The position numbers were made by a program, and so were the translations under genes. A stretch of DNA of 64,000 nucleotides from Struthio camelus (taxonomy: Eukaryota; Chordata; Aves; Struthioniformes; Struthionidae): the NCBI RefSeq assembly GCF_040807025.1, contig NC_090953.1, forward strand, positions 23,482,997 to 23,546,996, in the 5' to 3' direction. This document shows positions 8,002 through 40,777 of the stretch, in pieces (the stretch's first letter is position 1; each line of letters opens with the position of its first letter). Below the pieces are notes generated by a model. That model did no database searches. It was not told the DNA's origin and worked only from the letters and a program-made list of their open reading frames with translations.

Positions 8002-11000
8002 TCATCTGCTCAGGTCCCGGCTTGCACTTCGACCGCACAACATCCTTTCCTCTGCAGACAGGCCAGCAAAAAAGGGATGAAGGAGAGCTTCAGAGAACGT
8101 GATCCTTTGGGAAGGGTCAAATTCTAGCATCCTTCTCATCAAGTCAAAGAGTTGTGCATGTTCCATTGAGTCATGCAGCATGTATGTCTGAAATAGAACA
8201 GGGCAAGAGAGAGATGTAACACTCCACTAAGACAAGGCATTGGGACAGCCCTGATCTGCTTCTACCTCCTAAAGCTTGGAGAAGCCTGTGGCTGCGGTTA
8301 TGCTGTCAAGAAAAGCCCTTAGTGCGCTACTGCCTGAACTCTGCAATGGAGGTGATTTGATGCTGTAGGAGATGCCAAAACAAAGATTCTCCGTTCTGCT
8401 GCAGCATGGCAAACTAACAGTGGGATATCACCACACTGACCAGGAAAGGGACCTGCACAGCAGTTCCACCCCCTGGAACACACCCACACACACACACACA
8501 CACCCACACACACACCCCTTCAACAGCATCACAGGCCCACTGGAAATTCACACCTGGCTGTGGCAGGGGCTAGCACCCACCCACATGCCAGCCTGAGAGC
8601 ACAGCCCAGCTGTCACCTGCTCCAGAGCTGTTCTCCACCAGCAGCTGAGCAATACCTACCCGCAGGGGCTTGCAGTTCTCTTGGACGTATCTCCCATCGG
8701 ACGTGTTCTCATCCCACACCAGGTTCCCATTGTGGAAGTATTTTTGTTTCCTATAAGCAAGGGAAAGTGTTTAGTAAGGCTAGCTGGGGGACATATGCAG
8801 AAAAGCTTAGCCACACAGGCAGAGGGAAAGCAGCAGCCTGTAAGACTCGATGACAATGCCTTCCCAGCCTCTGTACCTCTTCGGAGCACCTATGCTAGGG
8901 TATTTTATCCATCTCAGGAGACAAGCAAAATGGTTTCTGAAGAGGAGCAACAAAAAGCCAAGCCAAACTCCCTAGTTCCTGAAGAATAAAACATTTCATC
9001 TATATGCTTTAGAGTGGTAAAAGGAGGAAAGTTGCTGTTTCTCAGCGTTGCAGAGGAAGAGCCACAGAAACAGGGACTTGTTCCCATGATCCAAAGAAGC
9101 CATGAGCAAGACAGAAGTACAGCTCACCCAGTTCCCTCACAGTGCAAACTACAGACAGTTGCTACACTAAAAAAATTCCTGTTTGGCTTGAGAAGGATCA
9201 AGAACTGATGGACAGCTATTGCAGAGAAGCCCATCTCAACATACAGACAGCACCATAGCTCCCTTTAGATTAAGCCTTACAGGCTGAACACTATCAATCA
9301 TCTCTGCAAAACATAAGCCGCTCAATCATTTCCCCCTAAACCCTGTGATCAAGCTTTTAAAAAAACCACCCTCCACCCCGTAACTCTTTTCTTGACTCCA
9401 TGAAGTCTCCCCAGGGTTATAACCACATAGCTAAGAGTTAGTGTGGGCACAGATGGTGGCTAATTAGCCACTGCAAGCAGTTGACTGGACAATCAAAGAG
9501 TTCAGGAACAGATTCTTACCGGGTTTTATGAATCATATGAGATGGAATTGGCCCGAGGATTTTTTCCATCATGACAAGATGTTCACGATTCTCATGGGTC
9601 TACAAAAGAAAAGAGCAATGGTACGTTACTTAAGAAGGTGGAGATCTGACAACAGGTCTGTAACCTGTACAAGTACACAGTGAGATGAGACAAGCTTCAG
9701 TCAGGTCCTTTCAAACTTTACTCTCCCATTTTCTACTCTTCACAGGTACAGTAAAGAAACTGAAGTGATCTGAACCTTATCCTTTCAATAAGTAAGTCAT
9801 AAGTCCTCAACCTACAGGCTTTCCTGTGCTTATTTTAGCACACAGAAAGTCAGTTTCTGATTTTCAGTGCTTGGTCTGCGTTTCCCTTCCCTCCATCTAA
9901 GTGCTAGCCTTTTTAGATATTAAGGCTTCTTAGTTGGGTTAGAGGGTACAAAGCTTTTTGCAAGAGTCATACCTGAAAGAGCGTGAAGCCACGGTAATAC
10001 TCAAACAAAATGCAGCCGGTACTCCAGACATCACATGGCTGTGCCCAGCCCAGCTCTGCAAAGAGAATAAAGCTAGCTTTCAGCTCCCAACGGATCCCAC
10101 CAGATTTCTCCTATTTTATTTTTAGGACTGCAGGCATTGGATGAAGACGTACCTAGAAGTTTTCTGCGCGCTCTGCAGGGCTGTACACTAGCAAGTGGTC
10201 TCACAAGAGACAGGCACTTCCATTTCAGCTTGTGCTGAGCCCACGCTCCCTTGGAGCTAATCTGAGCACCTCACAAGTCTTACTGGTATTTCTTAGCCCT
10301 CTGCACTCCCAGTCAAGGTCATCGGCTATCCATGGATAATTTCCATGCAGTCGGGGCCTTGGGACCACTGGGGTAGTGGGGTACCTTGTCTCCCACAGAG
10401 GTGGCATCACAGCAAGTTTACTTTTCTTTGCATGGAACAGGTTGTCCCCAAGCCATGTTCCAGAAAAGGAGCTCTTTCAACTGATTTTCCTATAGACAGC
10501 ATCATCCTACAGCATCCCTGAGACAACTGTTCTCCTCCACCTGGCTAAGACTTCCCAAATCCCAGCACTACTCACCAAGGATGACTTCTGGTGGACGGTA
10601 GTGCCGGGTAGCAACAATAGTGGTGTGGTGCTCGTGATCGAACGTGGCACTTCCGAAGTCTGCCACACGGATGCTTGTGTTCCTAATAGATTTCTCCTCA
10701 CAGCTCTGCAAAGAAACAACAAGTAGTAATTAGTGCTTCCAAAAGGTGGTTCAGGATTAAGGTAGGCTTTGAGAGGAGTCCCAGAACTGCCGTGTGCACA
10801 TTAGTAATAAGAAAGACTAGAACTGTGAAGGTCTGAGCTCTTTACATCTCTGATCAGCACTAAGGAAAGCAGCTGAACGCTCCACTTTACTGACTAGAGC
10901 TGCTGGAAGACATGGGAGAAGGAAAAGACCAAACTTCCAGTTTGTTCTAACTGAACAGACCTTTGAGGCCCCTTAGGGCATGGGCAGAACAAGGAAGATC

Positions 11001-12535
11001 CAATTTCTGCAAGGAGAAAGAGGCAGGGTACTCCTGGCCTATTCACCTCTCTTTGAGGCATAACTCACCTTTTTCTCATTGTACAACGTGTCAAAATCCG
11101 AGTTGACAAACAAGATGTTTTCTGGCTTGAGGTCAGTGTGAGTCAGCTGGTTGTCATGTAAAACTGCACAGGTGGGGAAGAAAAGAGAAAAAGGGATTTA
11201 TAAGAACCACACACCAAACCATCCCTATACAGCTCTGCCCAGCAAGCCAAGCAAAGCTCCCTTCAGCCCCCAGGGGGGCTCCGGCTCCAGACTAGAGCAG
11301 CCACAAACTGGACACCTGGACAAACCAGCTCCTCAGCTCCTCCCAAACTGTTCTGGTGAGCACATCCTAGCCTAACTAGGTATTTCTGACATGGCAAAAG
11401 GCACCTTTTGCCAAGGAGAACTTACAAGTCTCCCTTCCATTCCTTTCAGAAGGAAAAGGAAGCACATCTAAAGACTGCCGCTCCAGACCCCTTCCCTGCG
11501 CTTCCTCCAGCCACCAGCATCTCCCATCTTTTCATAAGCTTCACACAAGGGGAAAAAAGTACCTAGAACATTCAGCTACTATTTATGCCTGGGCAGAAAA
11601 AGCAGGTATTGAAGAACAACGAGCTGCTGGCAAGCCCAAAGGCCAGCCCTGGGTAACTTACATCTCAAGGCATGGCAGAGCTGGTAGGCCATGTGCCGAA
11701 TCTGAGGAAGAGGGTATGGCTGGAAGTTATTCTCCTTCAGGAATTCAAAAGTGTTCTTGCCTAGAAGCTCGAAGGCAATGCACATGTGGCCATGGAAGTT
11801 GAACCAGTCTGACATCAGGACACACAAGCTGCAGAGAGAAAAATGCGAGGATTAATCATCATTCGGGGACCTGGCAGAACAGTGATTTTCCCAGCCTTTG
11901 CCTGCTTCAGAAGTGGCTAGTAAGCAAACGCTCTGAGCCAGCAGATTCAGTAGCACAGCAATGCTTCTTGTTCCACAGGAGTGACCTCCCCTTGCTCAAA
12001 CACCTTTATATAAAAGATCTCTAACTCAAGTGGGACCAGGCAGCAAGCTCTTCTCAGAAGAAAAACTTACCCTTACTATGAACTGGCATATCAGTTGATA
12101 CAGTTACACATGCAAATACTCAGTAGGAAAACTAGAGAAAGGCTTTCTTCTTCCAAAAGGCAAAAGACAGGCAGGTTTTTTTTGTTGTCTGTTTTTTTTT
12201 TTAAATACACAGGAAGCAAGTAGTGGGTGTTCCAGTCCTCAGCCCAGCACTACTCTGCACAGTGTCCACACAGATGGCCTGCCTCTAGAAGGCAGTACCG
12301 ACTACCTGGAAGCCTCTATAGGAACTTACAATTTGTTCTCCTTGTCCTTCTCTTTGATTTTCTTCAGGACATTGATTTCCAGCCTGGCTGCTTCTCGGTA
12401 CTTGCCAACATTTTTTATAATTTTCAGTGCCACTTGAGAGTTGCCTCTGTAAGGGAAGAGGCAGAGAGATGAAGTCAAAGAAAAGGCCAAGATCACCTCC
12501 ACAGACACATCCTCAATCCACTGAGAGTGCACATC

Positions 12536-12577
<42 letters not shown>

Positions 12578-15500
12578 CGACGAGTAACTGGGAGGAAAGA
12601 GGTTTAGCCAGTTCTGGGTCCCAACTGTTCTCTTGAGATTCTTGAGATACGCCAAGGATTCACATCATTGTCTAGGGATGTTCCCCCATTTATTTTGGGG
12701 CAGAGAACGACCGCCCCCGGGCTTGATGGGAGACCCACACGCAAGAGATGGACGTGACACACCCTTAGTTTTCCCCACCTGCCTTCGAGAGCTTCCATCT
12801 CTCATTTGTTTCAAGACAGCTTTGGCCCAGATCTGAAGCAGCCACAGGCGTGATGGGGGTTAGGTGCCCGGGAGGGAATATGCACAGAGAAGGAACTTCA
12901 CTCATGTAGTCTTTGGTAGGGACAACAGCTTCCCCTTGGCCAAAGTCCAGCTTTGCTATGAGGTGGTCCATGGCTGGGAGTCCCAACCATTACCAATATT
13001 TCAAGTTAGCCAAAACACACCTGTGATTTGAGTCTATATGAACCAATGTGGAAAACCAAGAAAATGAGAGGTAGTTCATTTCTCCTGCAACAAGTTACAG
13101 AGCTACACAAATTGCCACCAAAACCCTATTGCTGCCTTAGTAGAGGCCAAGGCAGAAACACACTGGCATGAAGGGGAACACTCAAACAGCACTGGAAGTA
13201 CTGAGACAGTGAGGAGGACATTGCAGTAGCCTTTAGGGCTGTTAAGGAGTTTCCCAAGAGTACACAACAGACCATGTTCCCACTAACTTCCTTTAGTTAA
13301 GCCATGCCACCCTGCACATGCCGTTCAGAGAGACCTCTGAGCAAGCACGTGGCAATCACTAAACAAGAAATACTAACAAGCAGAGGGAGGAGGTAACCTT
13401 CAGCAAGCTTAGGATGAGCATCTGATAGTGTGGGGGGGGGAAAAACAAAACAAAAACCACAACACACAGGTCACTAGATAAAGATGGGAGGACGGGATGT
13501 TCTGCCCTCACGCCAACCTTGTCCAGTAGTGAAACTGAAATTCAAAGTGAAAGACTATTATTGCTCAGCAACATTCCTAAGAGAGCTGCAGAAAGCCCTG
13601 CAAATACAACACATACTGATGCAGCCGCTGATAAGGTCACTGTGACTCCAGCAGACACCTCCTCTCTCCAACTGTGCCAGAGAGATTTTGGAAGAGGCAG
13701 GAGGATCCCACTAGCTCTTGCACTACACTCATCCCACGGCTCAGAGCCAGACGGAAGGTCAGGAATAGACAAGGGTCAAGTGTAATCACAGGACAGGAGA
13801 AAAGAAAAGTAGTACTCTGGCAGATTAAGAGGTCACTTTCCCCAGCTGAGCGTCCCATTCCTCTGCCAAAATTCACTGCTTCTACAGCAGGGCAACAGAA
13901 CAGAGTCTGTATCTAAGCGCTTAGCTGCTGAGCTCCCCCGCTTGGCTTAACACATCAGTTTGCAAACTTGGATGGCTGAGGTATGAACAAGGCCACTTTC
14001 TGTTTGCTGTGAGAAATAACTTCTACTGTGGTGACAAGTGGGAGGTGACAACACTTCAGTCCAGCAGAGTCCCAAGAGCCCCCACAAAACTGGCGACATT
14101 AATCCTGCCACGCTTGCGAGCGCCCGAGCTTGTTCCACAAAAGGCAGACAAGTCATGTGGAAGTGAAAGATGCCTACCTGGCGTGGTCCACACACTCCAC
14201 AACTTTGCCAAAAGTGCCTTCACCAAGGCTGCCGACAATTTCATCTAGGAGAGAAAACAAGAGCGGATGTGAACTTCCAAGGCTTGGCGAGAGCTGAGGT
14301 CCTGCAATTTCACAGCAATAAAATATCGAAACAAAAAAATGTCTCTCACGGCTACACTCTTTAAAACTCAAGTGTCTTATTGTCTGCCTCAGGCAATTAC
14401 TGGTCAGTCCATTTATAAGCAATAAACACTAGAGACCCCTCCAGTACAAAAAGAGAGATCTCGTCTAACATGGGGATAGAAAGTAGAGAGGTAAAGTTTT
14501 ACGAAAGGTGGCTGTACATCGCTCTTGGAGCCAATCGCCGATCCTGCACACCAGGTGGCCTTCCTTGTCATCTTCCACGCTTCTGCTGCGCTTACTGCTC
14601 TGTTGGCTTCTCTGTACACACCGCCCCCCGAAACGGCATACGACCAAGCGCACACAGCGGGCAGTTCCGAATGGCAGATTGTGTTGTCATTCAAAGGTGG
14701 AGACGACGGTGCGTCGGTGGTTGGATTTTCCAGATCCCAGCATTTCATAAGGCACACAGCATATATAACGATAGGGATATTGCAAGGGACACGTCAAGAC
14801 ACAAACTAACTTCAAAACAGAAAAGTAATCAACAGCTACAGGTATGTAAAGAAAACTCTCTCATTAGCTACAGCGTCTGATGCAGCAGCCTCTAAGCAGG
14901 AAAACGCCCCCCTCTTCTCTGAAGGGAAGCAGCAGCTGGGGAGCTCCAGTCACTGGTTTGGCACCACCATTCCCCACAAGATTTGCCACAGAGGAGCAGC
15001 TTCCTCCATAGCACCAGAGGGTGCTACCAGAGGAACGAGGTGCAAGAAGAACGAGGGCTTTGCCAGAAGAACGTCATTTTCTCCGCTGGCAAACATGACG
15101 ATGGGTATACAAGTTGCCAGTTTGGACAAGCTGTCCAGTAGAAGCCAGAGTAGCAGTTCTCCCATTGTGTAGTCTGCTCTTTTGTACCTCAATTAATGGA
15201 TCGCCAGCTACACAGAGACGTATCCTGCCCCTGCTATGAATCGGCCCTTCCCGTCTTCACAGAACCAACAACAAGACTGATCCTATCTCTACAAGCCTGA
15301 CTGAATGCAAACAGACCTAGTATTGCATGTCTTCCTTAGGATGCAATTTTAAGCCTGGAAGAACTTTAGGAACAGGACAGGGAGTGTTTCACTCATAACT
15401 TCCAGCGTCCGCTAAAGGCAAGAGGTCACAATCACCCCTGCTACTACTAGCTTCTACTGGAAAACCAGCCGAACGTTCCCAGAAGGATCCAGCGTCCACA

Positions 15501-18500
15501 AAGCAAACTGTCCCAATACCTGCACTTTTCTATTTAGCCTTAAAAAAGTTACAGTCTCTGCAGCCAAAGAAATGCTAACAAGGCTCTACACTTCCATGCC
15601 CGAGTTCTATACATCTTTTCTCCTACACCCCTCACCCCCCTTCCAGTCCAAAATAATGACCTACGAACAAACCCTAAAAGGTCAGCTGAAACGGAGAAGA
15701 AGGTGGAAAGAACAGTTGAGACAGCTGTGAGACTTCAAAGGATCTAGATCACACCAGTCAAAACCTGCACACTGTACCACCACACTCACACATGCAAACA
15801 GTCTTGGAGTGTTTTAATCATAACCTTGACTTTTTAAGTTGAGCCTTAGAAGAAGGCAACTGGAAAGAAATAAAAGGAGGAAAGCAACAGACCACCAGAA
15901 GTTCCAAGCCATGCAGCTATCTGGTATAACTGCAGGGATCAGGACTTGGTCACTTGGTTGAAATAATATTTGAAAACAATGAACTTGTGAACGACAGAAG
16001 CGTTCCTTACTGGAGCGAGAGAAGCAGTGAAGCAGAGACATTTGGTCTGATACCTCACAGCGCTTCCAAGGCGTTCCAGGTCCAGGGACGAGTCTCCCCA
16101 CCCAGTGCCAAACATTCCCTGCTAATCCTTCAAATATCTAAGGCCGAGGATAACATGTTGCATTATACTCAGAGTGGAAAACACTTAAATTTTCAAAGAA
16201 GCTGAAGTCTGAGGACACTTGTGTGAAAACAGGCAAAGAGGACACGTGCATGTTCTCAGAAGGTGGAAGCCTCTAAATACTGTGGGACAGGGGTAAATAA
16301 CCACATGGCTAATGTCTCCAGAAGAGTAAGGCTTGATATAGCTGATTGATCCCATACAGTACAGGATCCTGGCACAAGCCAATCAACATGCCTTCACAGG
16401 AGTGCTTCGTACCATCACCGCATACCAAAAACCCCCAAAGCAGCATCAATATGCAGAAGTGAAACCCTTGTCACGTATAAACCTTACGGCAGCCCGGCTG
16501 GCCTGCATCCACGACTCACCCTTGTTATCGCATCATGCGTTTGCGCCATTTGAAGCTTTCACCGGTCCCCACCCCTGGCTCTAAGAACACAGCTTAGTTT
16601 CCTCATGTATTAGAGCTACAGGGGCTGGACTAGTAAAACCTAATAGTTACAAATGCTTCCAGCTTAACAAGACACAGATTTGGGACTATACGTTCCACAT
16701 AAGCAAAACAAACACAAAAATGGGATTAGAGGTACTCACCCAGAGTGTTCTGAGCTGAAAGGAGGTAAAAGAACAGTTAAAAACCTGAAACAATCCTGAA
16801 CTCGTGCTGGATGCTACTCACCGAGGAGGCACTGCTACAAGACCTGGTCCTGCGTTTCCGGCAGTGATGCTGATGCTTCTTTGCGCGGTGCTGCTCTCTG
16901 CCTCTGGATCTCCGCCAGTTTCGTGCGCGGGCCGAATAATAGTCCTCTCCAAAAGACGGGCTTCGGTCTTCAAATCTGTAGGTGTCGCTGTCCCGTCTGT
17001 ATCTCCTGTGGTAAGGCATCCTGTCATGGCTGCATTGCAAACAGAAAGCCCTTTACAAGCCTGAAAAGCGGGAAAACCAAACCAGAGCCCTGCTGGCAGT
17101 AAGCACTCTTGTTCCCGCTACCTGGTGGCAAGGAAACAACAGCAACATCCTAACTTCGAACCACCATGCCAGTACAGCTCAAACGCTGACCTCTTTTCAG
17201 GCGAGTTTCTCCGATAAGGAGGAGGAGAAGGTTAGCTAAAGAAAATGGTGTGGCATCGCCACAATTCAAGGAGCCAGGGGAAACACCACCCACATACTCA
17301 GAACTAGATTTGAGCCACCTGCCTCCTCTGAGCCACCTCCAAGTATTTTTCTAACATCATTTCTCTTCCCCCAGGAAGGACTCTCATTAGTTTTTACACA
17401 AATGAGAACTGAACGCAGCAGGGGCGCCCCAGTCATCACCCTGGTGGGGATCAGAGTCCCCTAAACACTGAGTCTTCAGTATACTCCTGCACAACAACTC
17501 AACAGATCATTTGTGAAAGCCACAAGGAAAGTTTAAGCTCTGCAGTTTAGTCAAACCGCTTCCTCCAGTGACAACCAAAGGTTGCAAACACATAAGGTCA
17601 AACGTGCATTATGAAGAGCCACAAGACAAAAGTTCCCCTTTGTCACCAGTTGTAAGCTGTTTTAGGTACTGTGCGCGCACATTAACTGAAGAACTAAGCA
17701 GCTTCTCTGTGCTCAGTTAGAGAGCATCTGTGAGCTGGAAGTGCCTCAAGTTAGAACCACCATTCTATAACTCCTGCTTTTTACTCTGCAGGTCGCAGCT
17801 TAATCCCACGGGCTTTCTTGGCAGAACTGTTACGGTTACATTTTTAAACAGTACAACAAATATGGCATCACTTAACCACGGTTGGCTTGTACGCTCAAAA
17901 GCATGACTGTCTTCCCCCCACCCCAACGGTTATTCTTTATCTCATAAAATACTGCCTTCAGTGCAAGTCTTGCTTCACACGTCATTGAATGAGAAGCCAA
18001 GGTTTAGGTAGGAGATGTTGTAACTCACAGAGGAAGAACAGCATATTGGCTTTCCATGAAAGATGATAATCAAAGCGTGATCAACAGTGGCATTCTGGGC
18101 ACATGGCTGGCCAGCTTGATGCTGTCTTATGTACCTAGCTGAGACCAAAGAGCAACTGTATCTCTGACCAAGACCTTGTTGCAACTGCTCCACTCTGGAA
18201 ACAGGAGCTTTCGTTGTTTCCTCCCTCTCTACTTTGGCAACAGTCAGCCCTCTTGCTGACAGCTTAACAGTACACAGATGTGCGCGTGGTAAGCAGGTGG
18301 TTCATTTCATCTTGGATTAAGAACAAACAGCTTTACACAGCCTGCCAAGCCAGCAGCAGCTTTAGGTCATCACTAAAGTATCCAAAAACAAACAAACAAA
18401 AAAAATACAGCTTTATACCAACACCAATACTCCACTCGAAACATACCCTTGTGAAACTTCAGGGTGGACTTTCAAGACACAGAGGATTCAGAAACAACAA

Positions 18501-19726
18501 TGGAGAATTTGAAGGGCTCAGATAGTGAGGAGACCAACAAACCTGTAAGAAGCTCACAGTCTGAGCCTAAAGGGGCAAAAAGGTTTTCACCCAGCAAAAG
18601 ATGTTTTTCATCCAAATCTGTTCTATATAATCCACTAGATGAAAAAGAAGAAGTCCACTGCGTGCGTCAGTTGTATTTCACAATGCACTTCTTCCAAGTA
18701 AACACAAAAGAGATCCAGAACAGAATTTAAACAACAGAACAATTAAGGAATTTAAAGATGAACTCAATTCCCTTTTAGCCGTACCTGTCCTGTTAAAACC
18801 GCAGCTGAGCCAGCGCAACAGCACCTGGACAAGCTCCAACACCACCGAGCAGTGAGGACAGCCAACCTATTTCAGTTTCAAACCATGAAGTATCAGCACA
18901 CAGCTCTCTATTAACACTCCTATCTCTGTTCCAGAACCCTCACCCCAGACCCTTTTATCAGATGACAGTTATCTATTGCGCTTTCAGCACCTGTGTGCTA
19001 ATTTGTCAGTTCCTGGGGAAACAACGAACAAAAGGATCAAAATTAAAATCCAGAGCCAGAACAGTAAAGCTCAGTTAAACTTATGGTATAACAGAGCAGA
19101 GATTTATAATTCCTTTCTGACAGTATAAGTGAGGTAAAAGTTTCTTTTTTGTTGTTTTTAAACTTTGAGTTGTAATTTCAGAAGAAAACGGGTTGTCAAG
19201 AGACAAAGACTTTAATGGCTCCGCAGCATTAGAGCTGGGAAACATGATTCCAGGGCAGGCTGTTCTCTCTCATTAATATTAAAAACGTGCCATTATTTTG
19301 GGAAGAACTTTTGGCTAGATATAGAGGCAGAAGCGCATAGGAGAAGGCAAACAAATAAGCCATTTACTTCCATCTCTGGGATTTACAGTTTTAAAGCTTA
19401 TCCACAATCAGGAAACACAACGCGTCACCACTCAGTGCTAGCTTGGAAACATGACCGGGATCAACGACAAGTATATATTAAGAGCATAATCTTGCCCACA
19501 CCTCACCTGTAGCCATGTGCAGATGCCAGAGTAGCTGCCTAGCAGAGGTGCCAACCTTTGATGAAACCGGCTCTTACCTTCTAGACCGTGATCTCCTTGC
19601 AAGATCCCTCCGGGGAGGGTATCGCAATCTTCCATCATAGTCTCTGCTGCGAGACCTCTTCCTCTTCCATTTGTGACCCAAGTAGGTCTCTTGCTCGGGC
19701 GACCGGTATCTCTTACAGTGATGCAT
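8002..19726 (-). CDS. CLK3: CLK3, dual-specificity CDC2-like (LAMMER) kinase, complete CDS
   Basis: Twelve coding exons on the minus strand: 19726-19578, 17029-16822, 14611-14518, 14244-14178, 12446-12330, 11828-11662, 11163-11069, 10705-10576, 10055-9973, 9599-9520, 8750-8660, 8187-8002. All have GT-AG edges and agreeing phases, totalling 1467 bp or 488 residues; the recalled short human form is about 490. The start is [12 protein letters not shown], directly after an acceptor. Residues 1-130 are Arg/Ser-rich, typical of the nuclear-speckle CLK N-terminus. Kinase motifs follow in order: [10 protein letters not shown] (P-loop), VALKII (catalytic Lys), [30 protein letters not shown], and the LAMMER-type [12 protein letters not shown]. 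CLKs phosphorylate SR proteins and thereby control splicing. The C-terminal tail ([10 protein letters not shown]) differs from recalled human sequence. The promoter is GC-rich and TATA-less. Identity is very secure. Confidence 0.97.
8479..8517. repeat. (CA)n-rich microsatellite
   Basis: CA repeats interrupted by CCCA units, inside the last CLK3 intron. Useful only as a polymorphic marker. Confidence 0.9.
12538..12575. repeat. Poly(A) tract, about 38 bases
   Basis: An almost pure A run on + (T run in the sense of CLK3) about 90 bp upstream of a CLK3 exon in transcript order. The preceding 70 bases show no recognisable SINE or processed mRNA, so it is called low complexity. Exact length is prone to assembly error. 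Confidence 0.85.
14518..14611 (-). other. CLK3: CLK3 94-bp exon, likely the conserved CLK cassette exon
   Basis: This exon encodes [20 protein letters not shown] and the start of the pre-kinase region. Its length is not a multiple of three, so skipping it shifts frame before the P-loop and gives a kinase-less protein. Skipping of the equivalent exon is a known autoregulatory event in the CLK family. The intron after it (14245-14517) is only 273 bp, making retention possible too. Use of the event in this species is inferred. Confidence 0.7.
14612..16821 (-). other. CLK3: CLK3 intron, no other gene seen
   Basis: Non-coding between the Arg/Ser-rich exon and the cassette exon. I see no strong repeat or RNA gene. 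Short frames here lack protein-like composition or known motifs. Confidence 0.7.
17030..19577 (-). other. CLK3: CLK3 intron, no other gene seen
   Basis: AT-richer intron separating the first and second coding exons. No coding exon, CRISPR-like array or structured RNA is evident. It holds minor A-rich runs only. Confidence 0.7.
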
Positions 19727-19932: not shown

Positions 19933-20075
19933 AGGATCACGGAACGGCCGGGGCTGGAAGGGACCTCCGGAGAGCACCTAGGCCGACCCCCCTGCTCGGG
20001 GGGAGCCCCCCTGCAGCAGGTAACCCAGGACGGCGTTCAGGCTGCTTCGGAACATCCCTAAGGACGGAGGCATCC
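19933..20075 (-). mobile_element. CR1 LINE, 5'-truncated 3' tail
   Basis: The + strand reads like the inverted 3' end of CR1, the main LINE of birds and reptiles. It starts GGATCACGGAACGGCC, then GGGCTGGAAGGGACCTCC, an 'AGCACCTAGGCC' block, a C-rich core with CTGCAGCAGGTAACCCAGG, then 'GAACATCCCTAAGGACGGAG'. This ordered set matches the recalled CR1 tail (AGAATGG...TTGGAAGGGACC...CCAACCCCC...CAGGTTGCCCAG). CR1 sense is therefore minus, the same as CLK3. Only about 140 bp remain, lying in the first CLK3 intron. CpG-rich substitutions fit a long stay in a GC-rich site. The subfamily is not assigned. Confidence 0.85.
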
Positions 20076-20519: not shown

Positions 20520-20712
20520 AGCCCGGCCCCGCTCCCCGCCGAGCCCCGCGGCCCGGCCCGGCCCGGCCCGCCCGGCCGCTCACCGCCCCTCCGCTCCGCT
20601 CCGCTCCCCGCCGAGCCCCGCGGCCCGGCCCGGCCCGCCCGGCCGCTCACCGCCCCTCCGCTCCGCTCCGCTCCCCGCCGAGCCCCGCGGCCCGGCCCGG
20701 CCCGGCCCGCCG
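20520..20712. repeat. Tandem 67-bp repeat across the CLK3 first-exon donor
   Basis: Two nearly identical copies start at 20574 and 20641 (offset 67 bp), and a partial third sits at about 20520-20573. Each full copy carries GCTCACCGCCCCTCCGCTCC, which on the minus strand is a G-rich exon end followed by GGTGAGC, a strong donor. Surrounding CCCGG/GGCCC runs make it prone to slippage. The duplication is seen directly; its effect on splicing is inferred. Confidence 0.85.
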
Positions 20713-20940
20713 CGGCCCAGCAGCGCCCGCCGCTCCCGCTCCCGCTTCCGCTTCCGCCGCTTGCCGGCCCCGCCCCTCTCCCCTCCCCTCCTCTCCTCTC
20801 CTCCCCTGCCCGCGCCGCTCCGGCCGCCGCCTCGGTGGTCCGGAGGAGGCGGCGGGTTAACCCCTTCCTCGCCGCGCGGCGCCCCGAAGGCAGAGAGGCC
20901 CCGCGGGGGTCCTAGCGCCGGGCAGCCGCCGGGCCTCGGG
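20560..20940 (-). promoter_or_regulatory. CLK3: CLK3 promoter and noncoding first exon
   Basis: GC-rich, CpG-dense, TATA-less region upstream of the CLK3 start-codon exon. On the minus strand it has paired ETS-type GCGGAAGC sites (20745-20758) and Sp1-like CCCCGCCCC at about 20767, and then GGTGAGC donors at 20584/20583 and again at 20651/20650. I infer a noncoding exon 1 from about 20740 to one of these donors, splicing to 19726, where the AG is directly followed by the start ATG. The TSS position is approximate. Confidence 0.65.
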
Positions 20941-20955
20941 CCTCGCCCTGGCCTG

Positions 20956-21870
20956 CCCCCGCCCCGCCGTGGCCTTCCTCGCCCTGGCCCGCCTCGCCAT
21001 GATCTTCCTCGCCGTGGCCTTCCTCGCCCTGGCCCGCCTCGCCATGATCTTCCTCGCCCTGGCCTGCCCCACTGAGGCCTTCCTTGCCGTGGCCTTCCTC
21101 GTCCTGGCCCGCCTCGCCATGATCTTCCTCGCCCTGGCCTGCCCCACTGAGGCCTTCCTTGCCGTGGCCTTCCTCGTCCTGGCCCGCCTCGCCATGATCT
21201 TCCTCGCCCTGGCCTGCCCCACTGAGGCCTTCCTCGCCGTGGCCTTCCTCACCCTGGCCCGCCTCGCCATGATCTTCCTCGCCGTGGCCTTCCTCGTCCT
21301 GGCCCGCCTCGCCATGATCTTCCTCGCCCTGGCCCGCCACACCATGGCCTTCCTCGCCATGATCTTCCTCGCCCTGGCCCGCCTCGCCATGATCTTCCTC
21401 GCCCTGGCCCGCCACACCATGGCCTTCCTCGCCATGATCTTCCTCGCCCTGGCCCGCCTCGCCATGATCTTCCTCGCCCTGGCCTGCCCCACTGAGGCCT
21501 TCCTCGCCGCGGTCTTCCTCGCCCTGACCCGCCTCGCCATGATCTTCCTCGCCCTGACCTGCCGTGCCATGATCTTCCTCACCCTGGCCCGCCTCGCCGC
21601 GGTCTTCCTCACCCTGGCCCGCCTCGCCCCGGCCTTCCTCGCCCTGGCCCGCCTCGCCATGATCTTCCTCGCCCTGGCCTTCCTCGCCCTGGCCCGCCAC
21701 ACCATGATCTTCCTCGCCGTGGCCTTCCTCGCCGCGGTCCTCCTCGCCCTGACCCTCCTCGCCGCGGTCTTTCTCGCCCTGACCTGCCGTGCCATGATCT
21801 TCCTCATGCTGGCCCGCCTCGCCGCGGTCTTCCTCACCCTGGCCCGCCTCGCCGCGGCCTTCCTCGCCCT
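20956..21870. repeat. 15-bp-unit minisatellite (about 60 units, no indels)
   Basis: Roughly 900 bp of tandem 15-mers of two main types on +: GATCTTCCTCGCCCT and GGCCCGCCTCGCCAT, with variants such as GGCCTGCCCCACTGA and GGCCCGCCACACCAT. Every unit is exactly 15 bp, so the phase never slips. Higher-order repeats are visible: a five-unit 75-bp block recurs at 21061, 21136 and 21211, and a 75-bp block is shared around 21346 and 21421. Because 15 is a multiple of three, long frames stay open on both strands (460 codons on +; 514 and 262 on -). These frames are best read as a by-product. It lies 200-1100 bp upstream of the CLK3 promoter, and nearly every unit carries CpG. Confidence 0.93.
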
Positions 21871-23800
21871 GGCTGCCGCTGGCCGGCGGGAGCTGTCTGG
21901 CTGCCCGTGTCCCGTGCGGGCAGCCGGGCGGGAAGGGGCCGCCGGGCCCGGGCTCAGGGCGAGCGGTCCCCCGGGCCCGGCCGGCGGGGCCTCAAGCAGG
22001 TCGCTCCTTGCCGCGGCGGTGACGGTGCCCGAGGGCACGGCCGGGCTCGCCAGCAGCCGGGAGGCCTGCGGGACAGCGCGCCCGCAGGCTGGCAAGGGGC
22101 CGGGTGCCTTGGGCATTTTGCACAGGCTTTTTTTAAGCACAGATTTGCGGTTTAAACAGTTGCTTTTTGAGCGCGCGGCGCCGCCGGTAGCGCACCTTCG
22201 GTCGGGGGGCCGACGAGCGTCACTGCTCGTCCCTGCTGGCGTGCGCAAGCGGTGCCGCCGGTGGGCTTGGGTGTCCCCTCCTCTTCTCCCCTTGATGTTC
22301 TCCCCGGAGCTGCCCCGCCAGGACGCCTCGGGTCCCTCTTTGTCGCCGTGAGAGGAAGGCCGTTTTGGGAACCGTGCCGTAACGGCAGAGAGGAAAAGCA
22401 CAGGTCTCCGTTTTATCGTTATCCCGCTCCGGAGGAACCTGAATTGCCGCTTTCGGGCCGTTTAGAGAACAAAGCGCTTGTGGGTTGGTTGGGTTTTTTT
22501 TAACCTTGCAAATTGTTTTAACGCCCCAAACCCGGCAGCCTCGCAAGGGCCGGCAAGGGGAGGCCGGCGGCGGACGATGGAGTCCCACCACGGGGCCGGC
22601 GTCCCCCTGCGCGCAACCGCCCCCAGCGGCGAGCAAGGAGCAGCCGAGAGAGGAGCGGAAGGCAGCTGCTCGTAGCCGGCGCGCGGGGAGGAAAAGAGGC
22701 GATGGCCGTGCCCTGCGAAGGCTCGGGACGGGGGCGAGGGGCGGGGGGGCCGGCGGCCTGGGGGCGCGGAGCAGGAGGGAGGGGAAGCGACAGCAGGCGG
22801 TGGGCAAGCGGGCTGTAGGGCGGCGGATTGGCGTCCCTAGCGGTTAGGGCAGCAAAGCGGCAAGGTGCTGAAGTGCCGCTGGCGTAACGTGGAAAATACT
22901 CAGACCGGGAACGGGTTCCCGGAGCCGCGGCGCCGCCCGAGTTGCCTTGGTGCCGTCCGCAGTGTATTTCCTGGCTCCGGCGGCGAAGACGGGGAGCTGC
23001 TCGCTCCCTGGAGGCTCAGCGCGCCGCCGCGCCGCGGAGCGGGCTCGAGCCACCAGCGGGGCGTTCGCCGGCCCGCGCGCCCGACGAGGCTCTGTCCTGG
23101 GGGGTCCAGGTGATGCTCTTCCCTCTCCTGGGCGCCGGTAACGCTGTGAACGTGTCTCCTTGTTTTCTTTCGGCCACTTCCTGGATCGCGTTGCCTGGCC
23201 CCGCGCCCTCCTCGCTGCCTGGTGGGCGCTCGCCGGGGCGGCTGGGCTGCGCAGTTGCTCACGGCGGGGACCCGGTTGGCGTTCCTCGAGGTGGGACCTC
23301 CACGTCCACCGTGGGGCCGCCGGTCTCTCCTGTGGGCCCTCCTTGTCTCCTGAGCCGGCAACTCGGCGCCCGCTGCTCAGCCAGCGCCCTGGTCCCGCCG
23401 CGTCCCTTCCCAAAAGCAGCAGGGAACGGGCTCCGGCGGCACGGCGTGGACAGACGGCCCCTAGGGCTTCTCACCCGCCGTCCCCAACCTTTCGTCTTGC
23501 AGCTCGGGCTCGTGCCCGCGCCAGGCTCCCTCTTGCCCGTCGTGTGGGGTGATTGCCCTGGGAGCGTGCGGCGGGATCTGCGGCAGCCGGGACGTGCCTG
23601 AGCGCCGGCGGCGCTGACGAGCGTCCCATGTCGTGCCGGAGACGGAGCAGCTTTGCTGCTCTGCCCTCCCGATACAGCGGCGACGGGTGCTACCAGCTCC
23701 GTGTCGCCTTGGGGCCTCCCAGCTGGGCCAGGCTGGACGCTGGGAGGCAGAGGAGAGACCTCTGGGCATCTCGGCACCCGTCTGTCTCAACGCTGCACAG
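21871..23800 (+). promoter_or_regulatory. CpG island; likely 5' region of the coiled-coil gene
   Basis: Very GC- and CpG-rich unique sequence between the minisatellite and the first supported (+) exon. Many overlapping open frames exist on both strands, as expected of such composition, and none has a convincing protein. By position it should hold the start of the downstream (+) gene, divergent from CLK3. No TSS or start codon could be fixed. Confidence 0.5.
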
Positions 23801-26800
23801 GAGCAACAGAAAACCCCTCTCCTGGGACCCCTTCCAGGCGGAGGTAATGGTGCAGAGCATCCTCTGCGGGGTTTCAGCACGTCGGCTTCGAAAATGCCCT
23901 TTCCACGCGGCGTTATTGCATGGTGCAGCCCACGCGTGGCTGGACTGCATCCCGCGGGCTGGCCTCGGGCTGGGTTTCTCGGCGCCTCCAAGCCGTTCAG
24001 CGCAGCGTGCTGGCACGTCCCCCACCACGGGCCCCTCTTGCCGAGCAGCCTGCACCATCGCTCCCGCGCTCTGCCCAGCCTCGAGTTACCCTGAGCACTT
24101 GTGGGGTGATGTGAGGGTGACGTTCCTTGGGCCCTTGTGGTATCCCGGCAGTGATTTGGGTGCAAAGGGGTGGAGGGTGAAGGGGATAGAGCAGGTGCAG
24201 TTGGGTTTCCTCTGCCCTTTGCCTTCAAACCACTGTCCCTTGCCTTGTTCAGACACTCCTCAATGCATCAGCCCCGTTCCTCAGCCCGCGGAGCGGCGGC
24301 ACCGGCAGATCCACGAGTCCCATCCGCGGGATCCCCTCTGCAGGGACTGGGAGGTGAGGTCAAATGGAAAATGGGGCTGCAGAGCCCGAGGGGAGCAGGG
24401 CAGGGCCCTGTCCCTCAGACCACGAGCCCTGCCAAAACTTCACCCTGCTGGAAAGGACAGATATCTTTGAAAAGAGACACACACAGCGGAGGGGATGCCT
24501 TGTCCCAGCATGCTCTGCCCCAGCGCTCAGTGCTGTGTGTAGCCCACCCAGAGGTGCCTGAAGTGCCCGCGGGACCCTGAGCATTGCTGCAAGGGCCCTG
24601 ATGCCTCTCCAGAACAAAGCGAGGCTGCTGGGTTTCATCTGCGCCTGGAAGGGCCGGCCACGTTTCGATGCCGTGGCTGCCTCTGTCACAGGAGCTCGTT
24701 CCTGCCGAAATAACACCGTGTGGGTGGGACGTTCACCAGTGGGAGCCTTGGATGCCTGAGGGAGCTGGGTGGAGAGCTTTCCTAGCCTCCCCCGAGTAGG
24801 CTGGGGGCACCAAATAGCCTGGCTGCTGGGCAGAAGGCTGGGGGCCCTGAGCCACCCTCCCCTCCCGACATCCCACGCTCTGGGCATGGCTGAAAGCAGC
24901 TCCCAAAAGGGGAGGGAGGCTGGAGGTACCCGCCAGATCCTGGGGCTCATAGTGCCCAAATGGGACCCATGGCCATACCAGTCTCTGTTGCCTGTAGCTA
25001 TCTCTTTGGTGTCTTCAAAGGCCACCCAGAACCTATTTAACAGGCAAAAGCGGCCAGGAGCTCTGGAGGTGGATGGGGAATACCGTGGTCAGTCCTATGG
25101 CCTCCATTAGCCATACAGGGGCTCTGATTTCTCAGGTCCTTATTGCAAACAGAAACCCAGGATCTCCTTTTCATGGTAGCTTTTGTGCCAACAGCTCAGA
25201 CCATGCTGAGGATCACGTGAGCCTGTCCGTGGGGAGGAGACATTCGCTATCCCATCTGCCCGAGTGGGGCACGGAAGGAGACGGTGTCCCACAGCCCCTG
25301 GATCAAAGGGTGCAGGGTGGATTTGTGCTGGATCTGCGAGCTGAGCTGGCGACTTCTCTGCGAGAGCCTTCGCAGGTGCTGGGGAGGCAGAAGGAAGAGC
25401 TGGTGGAGGGGGACCAGGAGGTGGATCTCAGCAGGGTGAAGTCTGAGCTGCTGTCCCTCAAGCTAAAGGTATGTGGGCATCCCTCTAAAGCCAGGAAGGC
25501 AGAGAAGGCTGCTGAGAAATGGGAGTCCTTGAGGCTATCTCTTAAGAGACATCTACCCTCCCCATGTGGGGCCAAGAGGGGAATGAAGTGCTGGCTGGTT
25601 TTGTGCCATCCCTTTCATAGGGCTCAGGATCAGATGTGCCCAGCTTGAGGTCTTCCGATTTAGCCCAGCAGCCTGGCTAGCCTTGTGCTTGTAGGGGAGA
25701 CTCACTCGTGAGGATGTCCCTCCTTTAGAGACCAATTCCCAAACAGCTGACTGTCCTCTTTCCTGAGGGAGAAAACTCTGTTGGTCCTTACTGCCGTATC
25801 TCCTGTGGCAGATGCAGAACATGCAGGCCCACCTAGAGAGGGAGAAAAAGTGGCTGGAGCTGTCTCGCCGTGAGGACCAGGAGCAAAAGGGGGATATGCA
25901 TGATAGGTGAGTGGCGACCTGGAGCAAGGGCCTGTAGGCCGTCCAGAGAGACTGAGCAAGGCAAGGGCCACCTGCATGCCTGGAGCACTCTGCTCAGGCC
26001 TGGGGTCACTGCTTCTCAGCGGTGCTGGACAGGGGGTTTCATAGGAGCCAAAGGTTTAGGCACCGACTTTGATTGGGAGTCAGGTCTTTTCTGCCTTTGG
26101 TGCTTCTGAAAACCCCATCAGCACCTGCGGGTCCTGGCTCTGGACCAGATAGCCCCAATCACTACCCCGACTGCGGGCTCGAGGCCAGGAGCGCTGCTCA
26201 CCATCCCGTTCCAGTCTGGCCGGGGCAGCCTAAGCGTTGAGCCCATCTACTGCCTACTTGGCAGTCAGTGTGAAGAGTTGCTGGGTGAAAGCACCCTCCC
26301 TGGAAACTGCCTTCTCCGGCTGGTACCTCTCACCTCCAGCTCAGCATCACCAAATTAACCCCTGTCCTGGCCACAAGATCCTGCGTGTTGGGGTTACACA
26401 TTTTACTGTGCAACCGGGGCAGGTGGGGCATGTCCCGGTAACCCAGAGCAAAGGGCCAGCCGTGTACAGGCAGGGGAGGGAATGGCCAGAAGGGCATTTG
26501 GGATGGTGCTGGGGAAACCAGCCCGCGATACGAGGGCAGAGCAGCCTGCAGAGGCAGTGCAGGGTCTCTGCTCTCTCATGGTCACTACGTGGCTGCCTAC
26601 ATGAGCATGAATGTGTCCTTCCAGGATCCTTGGCCTGGAGCTGGAGGTGGCAAGAGCCAACACAGACCTGCGCGGGATGAGCTGTTGCCTGGGCTTGTCG
26701 GATCCCAGCCGGATGGCAGCAGGGGTAAGGGAAGCGTTGGGAAGAGGAGGTGTTTCCCATCTCAGAGGAGGCATGGCAAGGAGAAGGGCACCAGAAGGGC

Positions 26801-29800
26801 CCTGTTCCCTCATGGCAAGGGGTGGATGCTCTGCTCTTGCCTCCTCTCAGGCTCTTTGACCCCATGTGTGAGTCACTGTGGGCTGCAGAGCAGGGCAGAG
26901 GGACCCCCTACCACCTCCTTGCCTAGGAGACACCCCTGCAGGACAGCATTGGCAGGGACAATCCCTGACCAGCCGTCATCCCTGCCAAGCAGAGTGACTC
27001 CCAAAACCATGTTGCCTGGGGAGTTGCTCCTCTTCGGTCGCTCCAGGGAGGTCCCACAGTCGCATCCTGCACCAGTGCGTACTGTCTGCCTGGGAGGTGG
27101 CAGGAGCTGGTGGCTGTGGCTGCAGTAGGTTTCGAGCCACCCCACAAAAAGTATTTTGGTGTTCGATTCCCGTTGAGATCACGTGGAGCCAGAGGGGTGA
27201 GGAGGGTTAATTCTCTTCGCGGCTCTGGGCCTTTCTTTGGCTTGCAAGGTGGTCCAAGTTTGTCCCTTGCCTTAAAAATCAGGATGGAAACAAAAATCCT
27301 ATCTGCTTTCTTTTATTTGGGTTGGAGTTTCAGGGTCTTCAGTGCACACTTGGGTCCCATAGTTCAGCTTTTGTCTGTAGCGCTCATTGCCGCAAGCTCG
27401 ACCGTCATACAAAAGACTGTTCTGTGAGCGTCCAACCCAGAGAAGCCCAGCTGGGTCTGCTCCTTTCCTCCTTCCACCTCATCCCCAAAATAACCCTGAA
27501 GAGGGATGCTGTGCCGTGTGTTCGCTCGCGGCACCTCTGCAGGGTGACCATCACCCTCACACGAGGGAATCTCCAGCGCTGATGCTGCCAGCAGGAGACC
27601 TCCTGGTGGTGGCGACTCCTGCTAACCTTGGCTGGGCGGAAATTGTGAGTGTCTTCCCTGGCAGTGTCCCTGCCATGGTGAAATCACAGCCGGCCCTTTC
27701 CTTCGCGTCGCAGGGCTGGCGCCTGGCTCGCCACCAGCGCGGCGCGGATGGCTGGCGGGTCACGGGCCTGCTGCAGGCCAACGAAGCCCTGCACGAGCCC
27801 ATCGGCAGGGTGCAAGAGGCCGCCAGGAGCATCGATTTGGTACGTCCATGGGGCGAGAGCCACAGGCTGAGACGCTCCTTCCCGCTTAGCCCGCGTCCCC
27901 CTACGGATCTGGGTACCAAAGTCTCCTTGAATTACACAAGCAGTGGAGGAGTTTCGCTGTCAGTGGGGCAGATCCAGGTCCATTTTCCTGCATTTTTTTT
28001 GACGTTGGAAATGGAAATGTTTCATTATGAAAATGAAGCGTTAAACAGGCTCGGGTTCCTTGAAATGCTAGCTCTGGAAAAAAAAAAATTCCTCATCCAA
28101 AATTATCTACCAGACTTGATCGAAACCTGCGACCAGCCAAGGCAGGCTGATGTGAGCCCTTCCCCTGCTCACGCTGGCACTGGAGGACGGGACGTTGGGC
28201 CTTCCCCTGCTCACGCTGGCACTGGAGGACGGGACGTTGGGGTGGGGAACAGATGGGCAGAGGGTGACAGCCAACCCAGGCGGGGACGCAGGTAGCTCCT
28301 CGGTCTCTTGACCCTGATGCACCTGCTGGCACCCGGCAAACCACCCTGTCCCTCCTCTCCTGGCCCTGCTAGGAGAGGGAGCAGCTCTCCCGCGAGGTGG
28401 CCTGGCTGGAGCGGAGGGGGTCTGAGCTCGGCGCAAAGCCAGATCCAGCCTCGAGCGACAGCGCGAGACTCCCCAAGGTAGTGCGAGGCGAGCAGAGGGC
28501 GTGCAGGGGATCGACCCCGTGGGCTGGGTGCTGGGTGCTGGGGGTGAGGCACCTAGAGGTCCCTGCTGGGGATGGCACGACAGGGAGGAAGGGGATGCCA
28601 CCGGCTCGCCTGGTTTTCAGGAGAAGGAGCAGCGTCATCAGCGAGCGGAGGAGCTCTCGCAGTGGCTGGCGCCTGCGCTGGGGAGCCAGGGGGGCTTTGG
28701 GGACTGGACGCTGGACCTCCAGCCGGAGCTGCCAGCAGGCAGGTGATGTCCTGGGGACCGAGGCATGGGAGCCCTGGGGTGTTTCGATCAGAGGAGCTCT
28801 CTGTGCTGGCACTGCCTTTGCATGCGGGGCTGGGTACGTGCACCCACACACCAGCCAGTCCGGAGAGCTGGGTACGCACACGCTCTGTGGCAGGAGCTCC
28901 GGGGCCAAGACTAGCAGGAGAGGAGAGGGCTGTGATGCACTTTCAGAGGCAGGGGCTGGCACTGCAGGGGAGGAGGATTTTGTGCCAGCAGGAACTAGAT
29001 GAGCAGGAAAGACCAGGAGGTTGCAGAAAGGTCTAGGAGATGCTGGGGGTGTCTCTCCGGGCTTGCCAGGATGGTGCTGTTCACAGGGAGTTGCTGGCTT
29101 TGGAGCAGAGGGAAATGCGGGTGCTGCGGCTGCATGGCTCCGATCTGGAGGAGGCTTTGCAGGGCCACGGGGAAGACCTGCAATGCCGGCCGGGAGAGCA
29201 GCGGCAGGTGAGCCCGCACGGGAAGGACGGGCTACCAGGCTTGGCCTGGCACCTCCCTCTGGGCCTTTAGATGTGCCATTGCTTCCCTAAAAAAGCTAGA
29301 AGCCTCCTCTCCACTTTGCCACTGACTTGTTCTTAGACCTTGGACATGTCACAGTGTGCATGCCTCAGTTTCCCCATCCAGAAACTTGTGTTAATGCTGG
29401 TGAAACTCTGCAGTGCCCAGAGGTTAGGCGAGGAGGATGCTGGAGATGCACCAGCACGTCCTGAGCTGCTGCTGCAGAGCTCTAGGTCTGGGCAGTCCAG
29501 GAGAGAGGAGGAGGTATGTGGCCTATATGCAGGAGGAACATATCTAACAAGGTCTTATACATGCATTTTCTAGCAGACTGAGGTCCCAGCAAGATCCAGC
29601 GACGTTACAAGCCCTGGCCTACAACAGGGTCATCCTGTGGCTTCCCTGGCAAGGTGGGTCTCGTGGCACGGGTCAGGAACCTCTGCTGCCTGAGAGCCGC
29701 TACCCGGCTCTGCCTGCTGCAGTGGGAGCGGGGAGCAGATGGATGCAAGGACGTCTGAGGACCACAGGGTTGCCGCTGCTGAGCATCTCCTCCTCACACG

Positions 29801-32800
29801 GCAGGGCCGGCAGCAGTGTTGCATCCCCCGCGCAGGAGAGGCTCAGCCCTCTCCAATCTGTGCAATGCAGCCCTCAGGGCTCAGGCCCTCCGAGAGAGCC
29901 GTCGGAGGAGGCTCCTGCGGACTTCGTGCCTCCCGGGCGTCTGTCCGAGGTGGAGAGGCTACGGCGAGAGCTGCAAAGAGAGATCACTGCCCGCCAGGAG
30001 AAGGAAGAGCTGGTGCAGACTTTGAGAGCGGTACGTCCAGAAAGGGTTATTGGAGTCCCTTCAGGGAGACAGCGTCCGGGGCACGACCCAGCTGAACCAC
30101 GTTAGATGGCCGTGACCCTTCAGCTGCCTTGGGAGAAGTGCACCATGGACCTAGAGGCCTGCCGAGATGCTCTGGGTTTTAAAACTGGCCCTGGGTGGGG
30201 AACGTGTTGTGTATCAGATCATTCAAGCTCTAGGGAGGATTTATGAGGACGCGCACACCCTCCAAACCTACGTCTGCAACAGTGCAGCAGAGTTCCAAAA
30301 AGGAAGAAAGAAGGGACAAAGGCACTAGTGGGATTGCACCTAGCCCCAAATGCCTCCCGCGCCTGCTTCCGCACCCCTCGTTTCTTCCACCCAGGCTGCG
30401 CTGTATCTCCTCCCTTATCTCAAGATGGACTTTCTGTGTCTGGGGTGGTGCTCTTTTTTCCTTCCTTGTCCTCCCCCCCTCCGCCTCCCTCACTGCTCTC
30501 GTTATCATTTCTTGTGCATGGCTCAGTCAGCAGCTCCTGCCCCCAGGCCGTGCGGGGAAGGAGGCTTTGGCTCCCTTGCTGCCTTTGCCATGCAGATCCG
30601 GCTCTCTTTGCGGGTGCTGGGGGGAAATGGGCACTTGGGGCCCCAAAAAGCCTCACCCTGGGGCAGCCCTGGAGGAGGCAAAGCAAGGGTGCCCTGCATG
30701 GACCTGAAGGGAGCTGAACCCCAACGAGACCTGTCCTAGCCTTGCTCCCCCCAGCTCTCCTTCTTCTTCCTCAGGGGGTAACTCGGGGCATAGCTGGGGT
30801 GAATACAGGCCTTTCTGGAAAGGCTGGACACCCTCTGGGAGCTGGTGCGTGTCCTCTGGACGGAGAGAGGCAGGGAGGAGGTCGGTGGTGGCCCCAACTC
30901 TCACACTGCCCGCTTGGTCCTAGGAGCTGGAGGAGCTGAAGCAGAAGAAAGCTGGAGAAATCCAGGTGAGAGGGGCTGGGTGCCACCGCCACGTGCTAGC
31001 CTGGGGTGCCGACGGGCGAGCCCTGTTACCCAGCCGTCATCCCTGCGGGTTTCCCTGGCCACCCTTCCTTCCTGGCGGGGACGTGGCAACAGAGACGTGG
31101 AGACTGCTAGCAGAGCAGTAGGTTTGGGGTACCCCCGCGTACACAGCGGCGTTGGCTCTCACTCTCTCGCATACCGCAGCATCTGCCCCCGTTTACCCAC
31201 GCTCATTTAGAGGATGCAGCTATCAGGGCTGATAAAAGGCAGCAAGGGCCTTGTCTGTTCCAGGCTCTCCGCACTTTCAGGCGGAGAGAGCATGGTGCTC
31301 TGCTCCCTCCCGAGGACCCTGGGAGGCGGGCTACGTCTCGCACGAGCCCTCGTAGGTCACCAGGGATCTCACTGCACAGTCCAGGCATCAGGGCTTTGCA
31401 GGGTGTTGGGGAGCATCTCGCAGGCTCTGGGGATGCATCCCTGAGGAGCCAAGATTTGGTCTCATGGTCTGAAAGCACCCTTGGGTGCTGGCTGGCTAGG
31501 GAATGGGCAAGACACCCACTATCAGCTGAGGTCTCTGTGTTGTGTTGGCTGAGCCTGTGATGAGCTGGACAGACTCAGCTGGAGATGGGCTGTGCGCTGG
31601 CTGCTGTCCCAGCGTCAACCCTGTGCCCCTCCTGGCCCAGGCCTCACTAGGGCAAGCTGACGCTGAGCTAGCTCTGGTGCGGGAAGAGCTCCAGAAAGTC
31701 TGGCACATGCTGAAAACGCGGGACACGGAGCTGGAGCAGCAGCACCTGAAGCTGGAGCAGGCCAGACACCAGGTATGACACCTGCGTCCCAGCAGGTGCC
31801 AGGGCCTCGAGGTCCCCCAGAGAGCTGCCTGCACCGCACTCGGCACTGCACGTGGGGAGAAACTTGTCCCAGCCCTACTGTGGTCACCACAGACGCAGGG
31901 TGCAGTAGATGGGAGAGGCATGGAAACGATTTGTCCGGTGCCCACAAGGTCACCCCATATGTCCACCCCCTGCTTCCCTCTCTGCCGGCAGAGGAGGCCT
32001 TGCAGCCCCTCAGGGTGTCCCCAGCCCACGCGGGCTGGACCCATGCCCAGCCGAGAGCAGGGCTCTCTCCCCGTTCCCCTGGCCTGGTTTTGAGCACACT
32101 GGAGACATCAGCTAGCCCAGGCCAGGACCAGATTAACAGGGCAGTAGCGTTTAGCCACGGGGCAACGGAGACAGCCCAGGGTCAGCAACGCTTTGGAGGC
32201 AAGAGACAGAGCTTTGGTGGGGGAGCCCGGCTGAGGACAGGGCAGCCTGTTCGGAAGCAGGTACCGCTGGCAATAACCTCCCTCCTGTGGCTGTTGGCAG
32301 CACGCAGAGTGCAGCTCCGAGAAGCAGAGGCTGGAACAACTCGTTACAACCCTGGAGCAGCAGCTGGCCGAGAAGTAAGGCCTGACAGGGTCCAACGGGC
32401 CGGAGTAAGGGATGCGCAGCACAAAACTGGCTGCTTGGAGGTGCAGCAGTGGCTGCGACGGTCTGGGAGGCGTGTGGAGGGGCTAAAGTGCCCCAAACGC
32501 TTCCCTTGAGGTTGCCCTCGAGGGAGTCCAGCGCTGAGTATCTTGCAACGGGTGCAAGCACTGAGAGGGGGAAAGAGGCCCCCGTGGGCTGGGGACGAGG
32601 TGTGCAGGGGCCCTTGGGTGTGAGGCTCTCCTTCGCCCCGAGCGAGTCTGCAGCGTGGGGCGCTCTGTGCTGGGGAGGGGGGTTAGTGCCCCCGATTCGG
32701 ACCTGGCAGGGCCAAGTCTTGGGGTTGAAGGGGCTCCATGGGCCTGGGGGTGTTTTTTTAAGCTCAGTCTTGTGTCCCCCAGAGACCAGGCCTTGAGGCA

Positions 32801-38545: not shown

Positions 38546-38581
<36 letters not shown>

Positions 38582-40713: not shown

Positions 40714-40777
40714 CTGAAAAGAGGACAGCGGCATTAGCTCCTCGCGCATCTCCAAAGGGGCTGGAAACTGTGCTCAA

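Follow-up and report, generated by a model that had tools for sequence, protein, structure and literature searches.

A 61-unit minisatellite upstream of CLK3 in Struthio camelus: very probably an ordinary, locally born repeat of the promoter CpG island

Minisatellites have been surveyed in chicken as a class of head-to-tail repeats with variant units of 11-60 bp (PMC4992247, as far as its available text goes). A second avian phenomenon, "sequence stuttering," also consists of local GC-rich tandem expansion; in the accessible part of its description (PMC12954441), it is placed mainly in introns on dot chromosomes, with exon fragments, and intergenic stretches are mentioned once, and its authors discuss conversion in repetitive stretches. 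In humans, a survey has reported 163 eVNTRs, over 6.1% of the 2672 VNTRs tested (PMC8024321, from the portion at hand).

The array described here lies in a window of 64,000 nucleotides from one contig of the Struthio camelus genome, and it is another member of the known minisatellite class. Its units fall within the 11-60 bp range, stand head to tail, differ by substitution (22 variants), and are spread by block duplication in 75-bp blocks; set beside the avian class as available to us, no tested feature sets the array apart, and its one-register tidiness is shared by another array of this contig, with units of 23 bp. With sequence stuttering, it shares local GC-rich tandem expansion. Unlike stuttering as placed in the accessible description (dot chromosomes, mainly introns), it belongs to a 26.9-Mb contig and lies upstream of the putative CLK3 first exon, the point relative to which its position is judged, and it contains no piece of a CLK3 exon detectable by a CLK3 protein search. 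Its proximity to a promoter recalls the eVNTRs, for which length variation and an effect on expression are features of their own, going by what we have of that survey. Our search of titles and the beginnings of abstracts returned no literature on a minisatellite or tandem repeat at the CLK3 promoter.

We consider it very probable that the array is an ordinary GC-rich minisatellite that was born locally, in the CpG island at the CLK3 promoter, and that grew by whole units. In the proposed mechanism, a 15-bp unit would have been amplified locally inside the CpG island; unequal exchange or conversion would then have spread and homogenized the array in whole-unit steps, often of five units (75 bp). 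Length slips would be rare because such exchange works in register. The features on which the argument draws are collected in Table 1.

Table 1. Coordinates, in the window, of the array and of the features that surround or overlap it
Feature	Position	Strand	Remarks
Minisatellite	20960..21874		61 x 15 bp; consensus TTCCTCGCCCTGGCC on +
Unit-like copy	20939..20953	+	2 mismatches; offset from the array's register by 6 bp
Recent 75-bp (5-unit) duplication	21028..21234		132 bp exact, offset 75 (21028/21103)
Second recent 75-bp duplication	21298..21484		112 bp exact, offset 75 (21298/21373)
FLALA/RLAMI hydrophobic open frame	20999..22351	+	From ATG, 450 aa; matches no family; regarded as a by-product of the unit
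ARARK basic open frame	20857..22461	-	Judged a by-product; Pfam HC2 match also obtained from the bare repeated unit
GQGEE acidic Gly-rich open frame	20912..21991	-	Without ATG; judged a by-product
CLK3 coding exons	8005..19726	-	First coding exon: ATG at 19726 directly after AG acceptor
Two GCGGAAG motifs	20745..20757	-	Motif scan; about 200 bp from the array
Two candidate CLK3 splice donors GGTGAGC	20578..20651	-	Starts 20651 and 20584; motif scan
Second, shorter GC-rich tandem repeat	20526..20731		About 67 bp x 3; holds the putative CLK3 exon-1 donors

The minisatellite is made of 61 whole units in one register. All of the inner units fit best at offset 0 (59/59), and base identity at a lag of 15 is 0.67, versus 0.35 (sd 0.014) in 200 letter shuffles; at a lag of 75, it is 0.82. 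An earlier note on this DNA, made from the letters alone, had described sixty 15-bp units whose phase never slips. The steady phase is borne out for every inner unit, with 61 units counted, whereas there may be one length change at the left margin because the unit-like copy there sits 6 bp off register; that copy is possibly an old edge unit and possibly a product of chance. CpG, which was said to occur in nearly every unit, is present in 52 of the 61. The 75-bp higher-order blocks claimed at the same time stand on firm numbers: 18 of the 56 pairs of units five apart are identical, while 5000 shuffles of the unit order averaged 4.6 such pairs and never exceeded 12. Tandem Repeats Finder reports 0% indels for the array at periods of 30 and 75. 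Divided into thirds, the array is homogeneous on the left and in the middle but divergent on the right, with best identities five units away of 0.95, 0.96, and 0.72, respectively, and with singleton units numbering 1/20, 0/20, and 8/21. The suggestion that the array expanded in whole units is supported by these homogeneous and divergent thirds and by the two long exact repeats (132 and 112 bp) at an offset of 75 bp.

Where did the unit come from? When a 24-bp stretch of the array was compared with the whole genome (1.45 Gb) at up to 3 mismatches, 28 matches were returned, 21 in the array and 7 elsewhere; the reversed stretch, used as a control, gave 6. Outside the array, the motif therefore occurs only at the control level. 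Six weaker matches were found by genome BLAST, and the four inspected (L002-L005 of L002-L007) are GC-rich arrays with different units. A dispersed family or mobile element was rejected on these two grounds, and the array most likely arose locally; one array locus was found in the single assembly searched. The RNA family search gave 0 matches at the gathering score, and one 30-mer of the array had 0 exact matches in viral contigs. At 26.9 Mb, the contig is larger than dot chromosomes usually are.

The absence of indels was among the features that had raised the question of constraint. In forward simulations matched for the number of variants and substitutions, zero indels resulted in 23% of runs at an assumed indel:substitution ratio of 0.05, in 5% at 0.1, and in 2% at 0.15. 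Since the applicable ratio is not fixed, the lack of indels stays the one mildly unusual feature of the array. For chicken LINEs, rates of 0.255 substitutions per bp and of 0.047 bp inserted or deleted per bp have been reported (PMC3342960, seen in part); to arrive from these at an event ratio near 0.05, one has to assume, as we do, an average indel of about 4 bp. Tandem Repeats Finder, run over the adjoining 200 kb of the contig as 20 loci of 10 kb each, returned 11 rows with periods of 9-80 and at least 5 copies, some of which describe one and the same array; 10 of the 11 rows carry 1-9% indels. A 23-bp array about 100 kb away (L019, 6971-7289) has 0% indels at 68% matches, with 12 of 12 inner units tested in register, a 69-bp higher-order unit, and an identity of 0.94 at a lag of 69. 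On another contig, a 20-bp array shows 0% indels over 16 copies, or alternatively 15-bp units with 3%. Based on these 23-bp and 20-bp arrays, phase-locked divergent arrays with a higher-order pattern do occur in other sequences, though they are in the minority. No arrays were present in two more 10-kb stretches taken from the other side of the window.

Large minisatellites are present on the same contig within about 200 kb: L018:8504-9700 (17 bp x 69) and L011:6435-7414 (53 bp x 18.5, 98% matches) each have exactly three open frames, as does the L019 array just mentioned (23 bp x 14).

Three frames are open through the array, as the earlier note had stated: FLALA on the + strand and GQGEE and ARARK on the - strand, with 19, 4, and 5 stops in the other three. 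We posit that no selection is needed to hold them open, given a unit that is GC-rich, has a period divisible by 3, and contains few near-stop codons in these frames. Single changes of the consensus unit that create a stop number 0 of 45 for FLALA, 1 for ARARK, and 3 for GQGEE. In a null simulation that placed random mutations on the real tree of units, 1907 of the 3000 runs ended with at least three open frames and 1300 with exactly three, so that three open frames are the commonest outcome of random mutation on this 15-bp unit; with the letters of the unit permuted, at least three were open in 2206 of 3000 runs. Shuffling the letters of the whole array, which destroys the repeat structure, left three frames open in 1 of 1000 cases and never more. 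Repeat structure, rather than selection, is thus enough to account for the open frames, since null runs often keep at least three of them and structureless shuffles rarely do. Frame by frame, the chance of openness in the null runs is 0.86 for FLALA, 0.59 for ARARK, and 0.18 for GQGEE, and the openness of the last is mildly lucky. Other GC-rich arrays of the genome, with units of 17, 20, 23, and 53 bp, have exactly three of six frames open in 4 of 4 cases, these four having been picked from those in view and not at random; the 17-bp array keeps its three despite 4% indels. We dropped the argument that its period, not being a multiple of 3, bars the 23-bp array from coding: the 69-bp higher-order unit is such a multiple, and the array has three open frames, which means that the period by itself is no ground for dismissing coding there. 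The array at CLK3 shows that GC-rich tandem repeats give long open frames without a sign of selection, and near CpG islands such frames can mislead the prediction of genes and small ORFs.

Could the array nonetheless encode a repeat protein in one of its open frames, for example, on a divergent transcript of the + strand or on one that comes from upstream on the minus strand? The length of the + frame (an ATG at 20999 followed by 450 codons) invites the idea, and so does a match of the ARARK frame, taken with its flanks (534 aa), to Pfam HC2 (PF07382) at 79 bits and 5.3e-22. This score exceeds that of every control, of which the best is 59. However, the consensus unit simply repeated 61 times (304 aa) reaches those 59 bits, above the family cut-off of 40, so that the basic pentad pattern alone suffices to pass and the match is no evidence of homology; simulated neutral arrays gave 57 bits in one of three cases and no match in the other two, and residue shuffles matched in 0 of 2. 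The FLALA and GQGEE frames have no Pfam match at an E value of 0.1, and the FLALA frame has no PDB match at 0.01. Nor do the codons argue for selection. The 33 substitutions inferred from a minimum spanning tree of the unit variants, a count that runs too high if conversion mixes variants, include 6 synonymous changes in FLALA, 12 in GQGEE, and 8 in ARARK, against expected fractions of 0.32, 0.28, and 0.30 (p of 0.13, 0.34, and 0.57); with the limited power of 33 events, a synonymous excess is absent in all three frames. The minus frames also stop, at 20857 or 20912, ahead of the putative CLK3 exon 1. With openness expected from the unit and common to null runs and to the four other arrays, the coding constraint that had been suggested is rejected, and we regard a protein product as extremely improbable. 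Does some DNA structure (an R-loop, a G-quadruplex, or a hairpin) keep the register instead? The minus strand is strongly asymmetric, at 49% G and 73% purine, and the array holds 34 two-tetrad G-run motifs versus 20.3 in shuffles. Against this, a canonical three-tetrad quadruplex is missing from the array (shuffles average 3.7), mean G4Hunter is 0.77, under the 0.92 of shuffles, and the one 300-bp stretch examined (21110-21409, folded as DNA) folds no better than shuffles, with z of -0.47 and +1.04 for the two strands. Structural constraint, the other cause that the earlier note had offered, was rejected on this quadruplex and folding evidence, and we judge it very unlikely.

If the array is a locally born minisatellite, as we think, then does it matter to the gene next to it? 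CLK3 lies on the minus strand, with the array upstream of it; a human CLK3 sequence used as the query gave 12 matching blocks from 19726 down to 8005, and the nearest PDB chain to one of the exons is CLK3 itself. The two GCGGAAG motifs, which we take to be ETS-like, probably mark the putative promoter core, and the GGTGAGC sites are candidate donors of an untranslated CLK3 first exon, roles that we infer from motif and position. The statement that the array stands some 200 bp from the CLK3 promoter is right relative to this inferred core. The array sits inside a CpG island of about 4 kb, with GC of at least 0.56 and CpG o/e above 0.5 across 19.8-24.4 kb (200-bp steps). An eVNTR could arise in such a place, with unit number altering CpG content, spacing, or divergent transcription and, through these, the expression of CLK3; the idea is compatible with an origin by local whole-unit exchange. 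Human VNTRs at most 100 bp from a transcription start are twice as likely to be eVNTRs, yet most of those tested were not (PMC8024321, in its available part), and the human rate is a prior rather than evidence for this array. Among 11 promoter-type motif patterns, a short GCCAT core is the only one found repeatedly along the array, at 14 sites on the + strand. We consider a length effect on CLK3 possible and the eVNTR reading unlikely; the array is probably neutral and would have little effect on CLK3. A bolder version, in which a divergent + transcript translates the 450-codon hydrophobic frame and unit number sets both the length of the peptide and the output of CLK3, strikes us as barely credible. 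If unit number does vary, the array would offer a convenient marker and would be a candidate for modifying the expression of CLK3.

Several observations concern the surroundings of the array. The 67-bp GC-rich repeat at 20526-20731 has duplicated the putative CLK3 exon-1 donor, so that two equal donors now stand 67 bp from each other. A degraded CR1-like 3' end lies a short way upstream of the first CLK3 coding exon (19936-19962, minus strand); the motif matches there with 3 mismatches and in none of 100 shuffles, and its presence agrees with DNA of a bird or another sauropsid. For a second CR1 motif, matches stayed at chance level (2 versus 0.86). The flanking genes in the window are EDC3, a synaptotagmin-like C2 gene, and an ARID exon whose nearest PDB chain is ARID3A and which, from gene order, presumably belongs to ARID3B. 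The synaptotagmin-like gene (37950-40777, minus strand) lies between CLK3 and the ARID3-type gene and has two C2 domain matches and, by eye, a membrane-like segment; we know of no synaptotagmin-like gene at the matching place in mammals. Finally, exon-like pieces on the + strand at 25200-33000, for which no Pfam match rose above the cut-off, have a coiled-coil character by eye and suggest a + strand gene divergent from CLK3.
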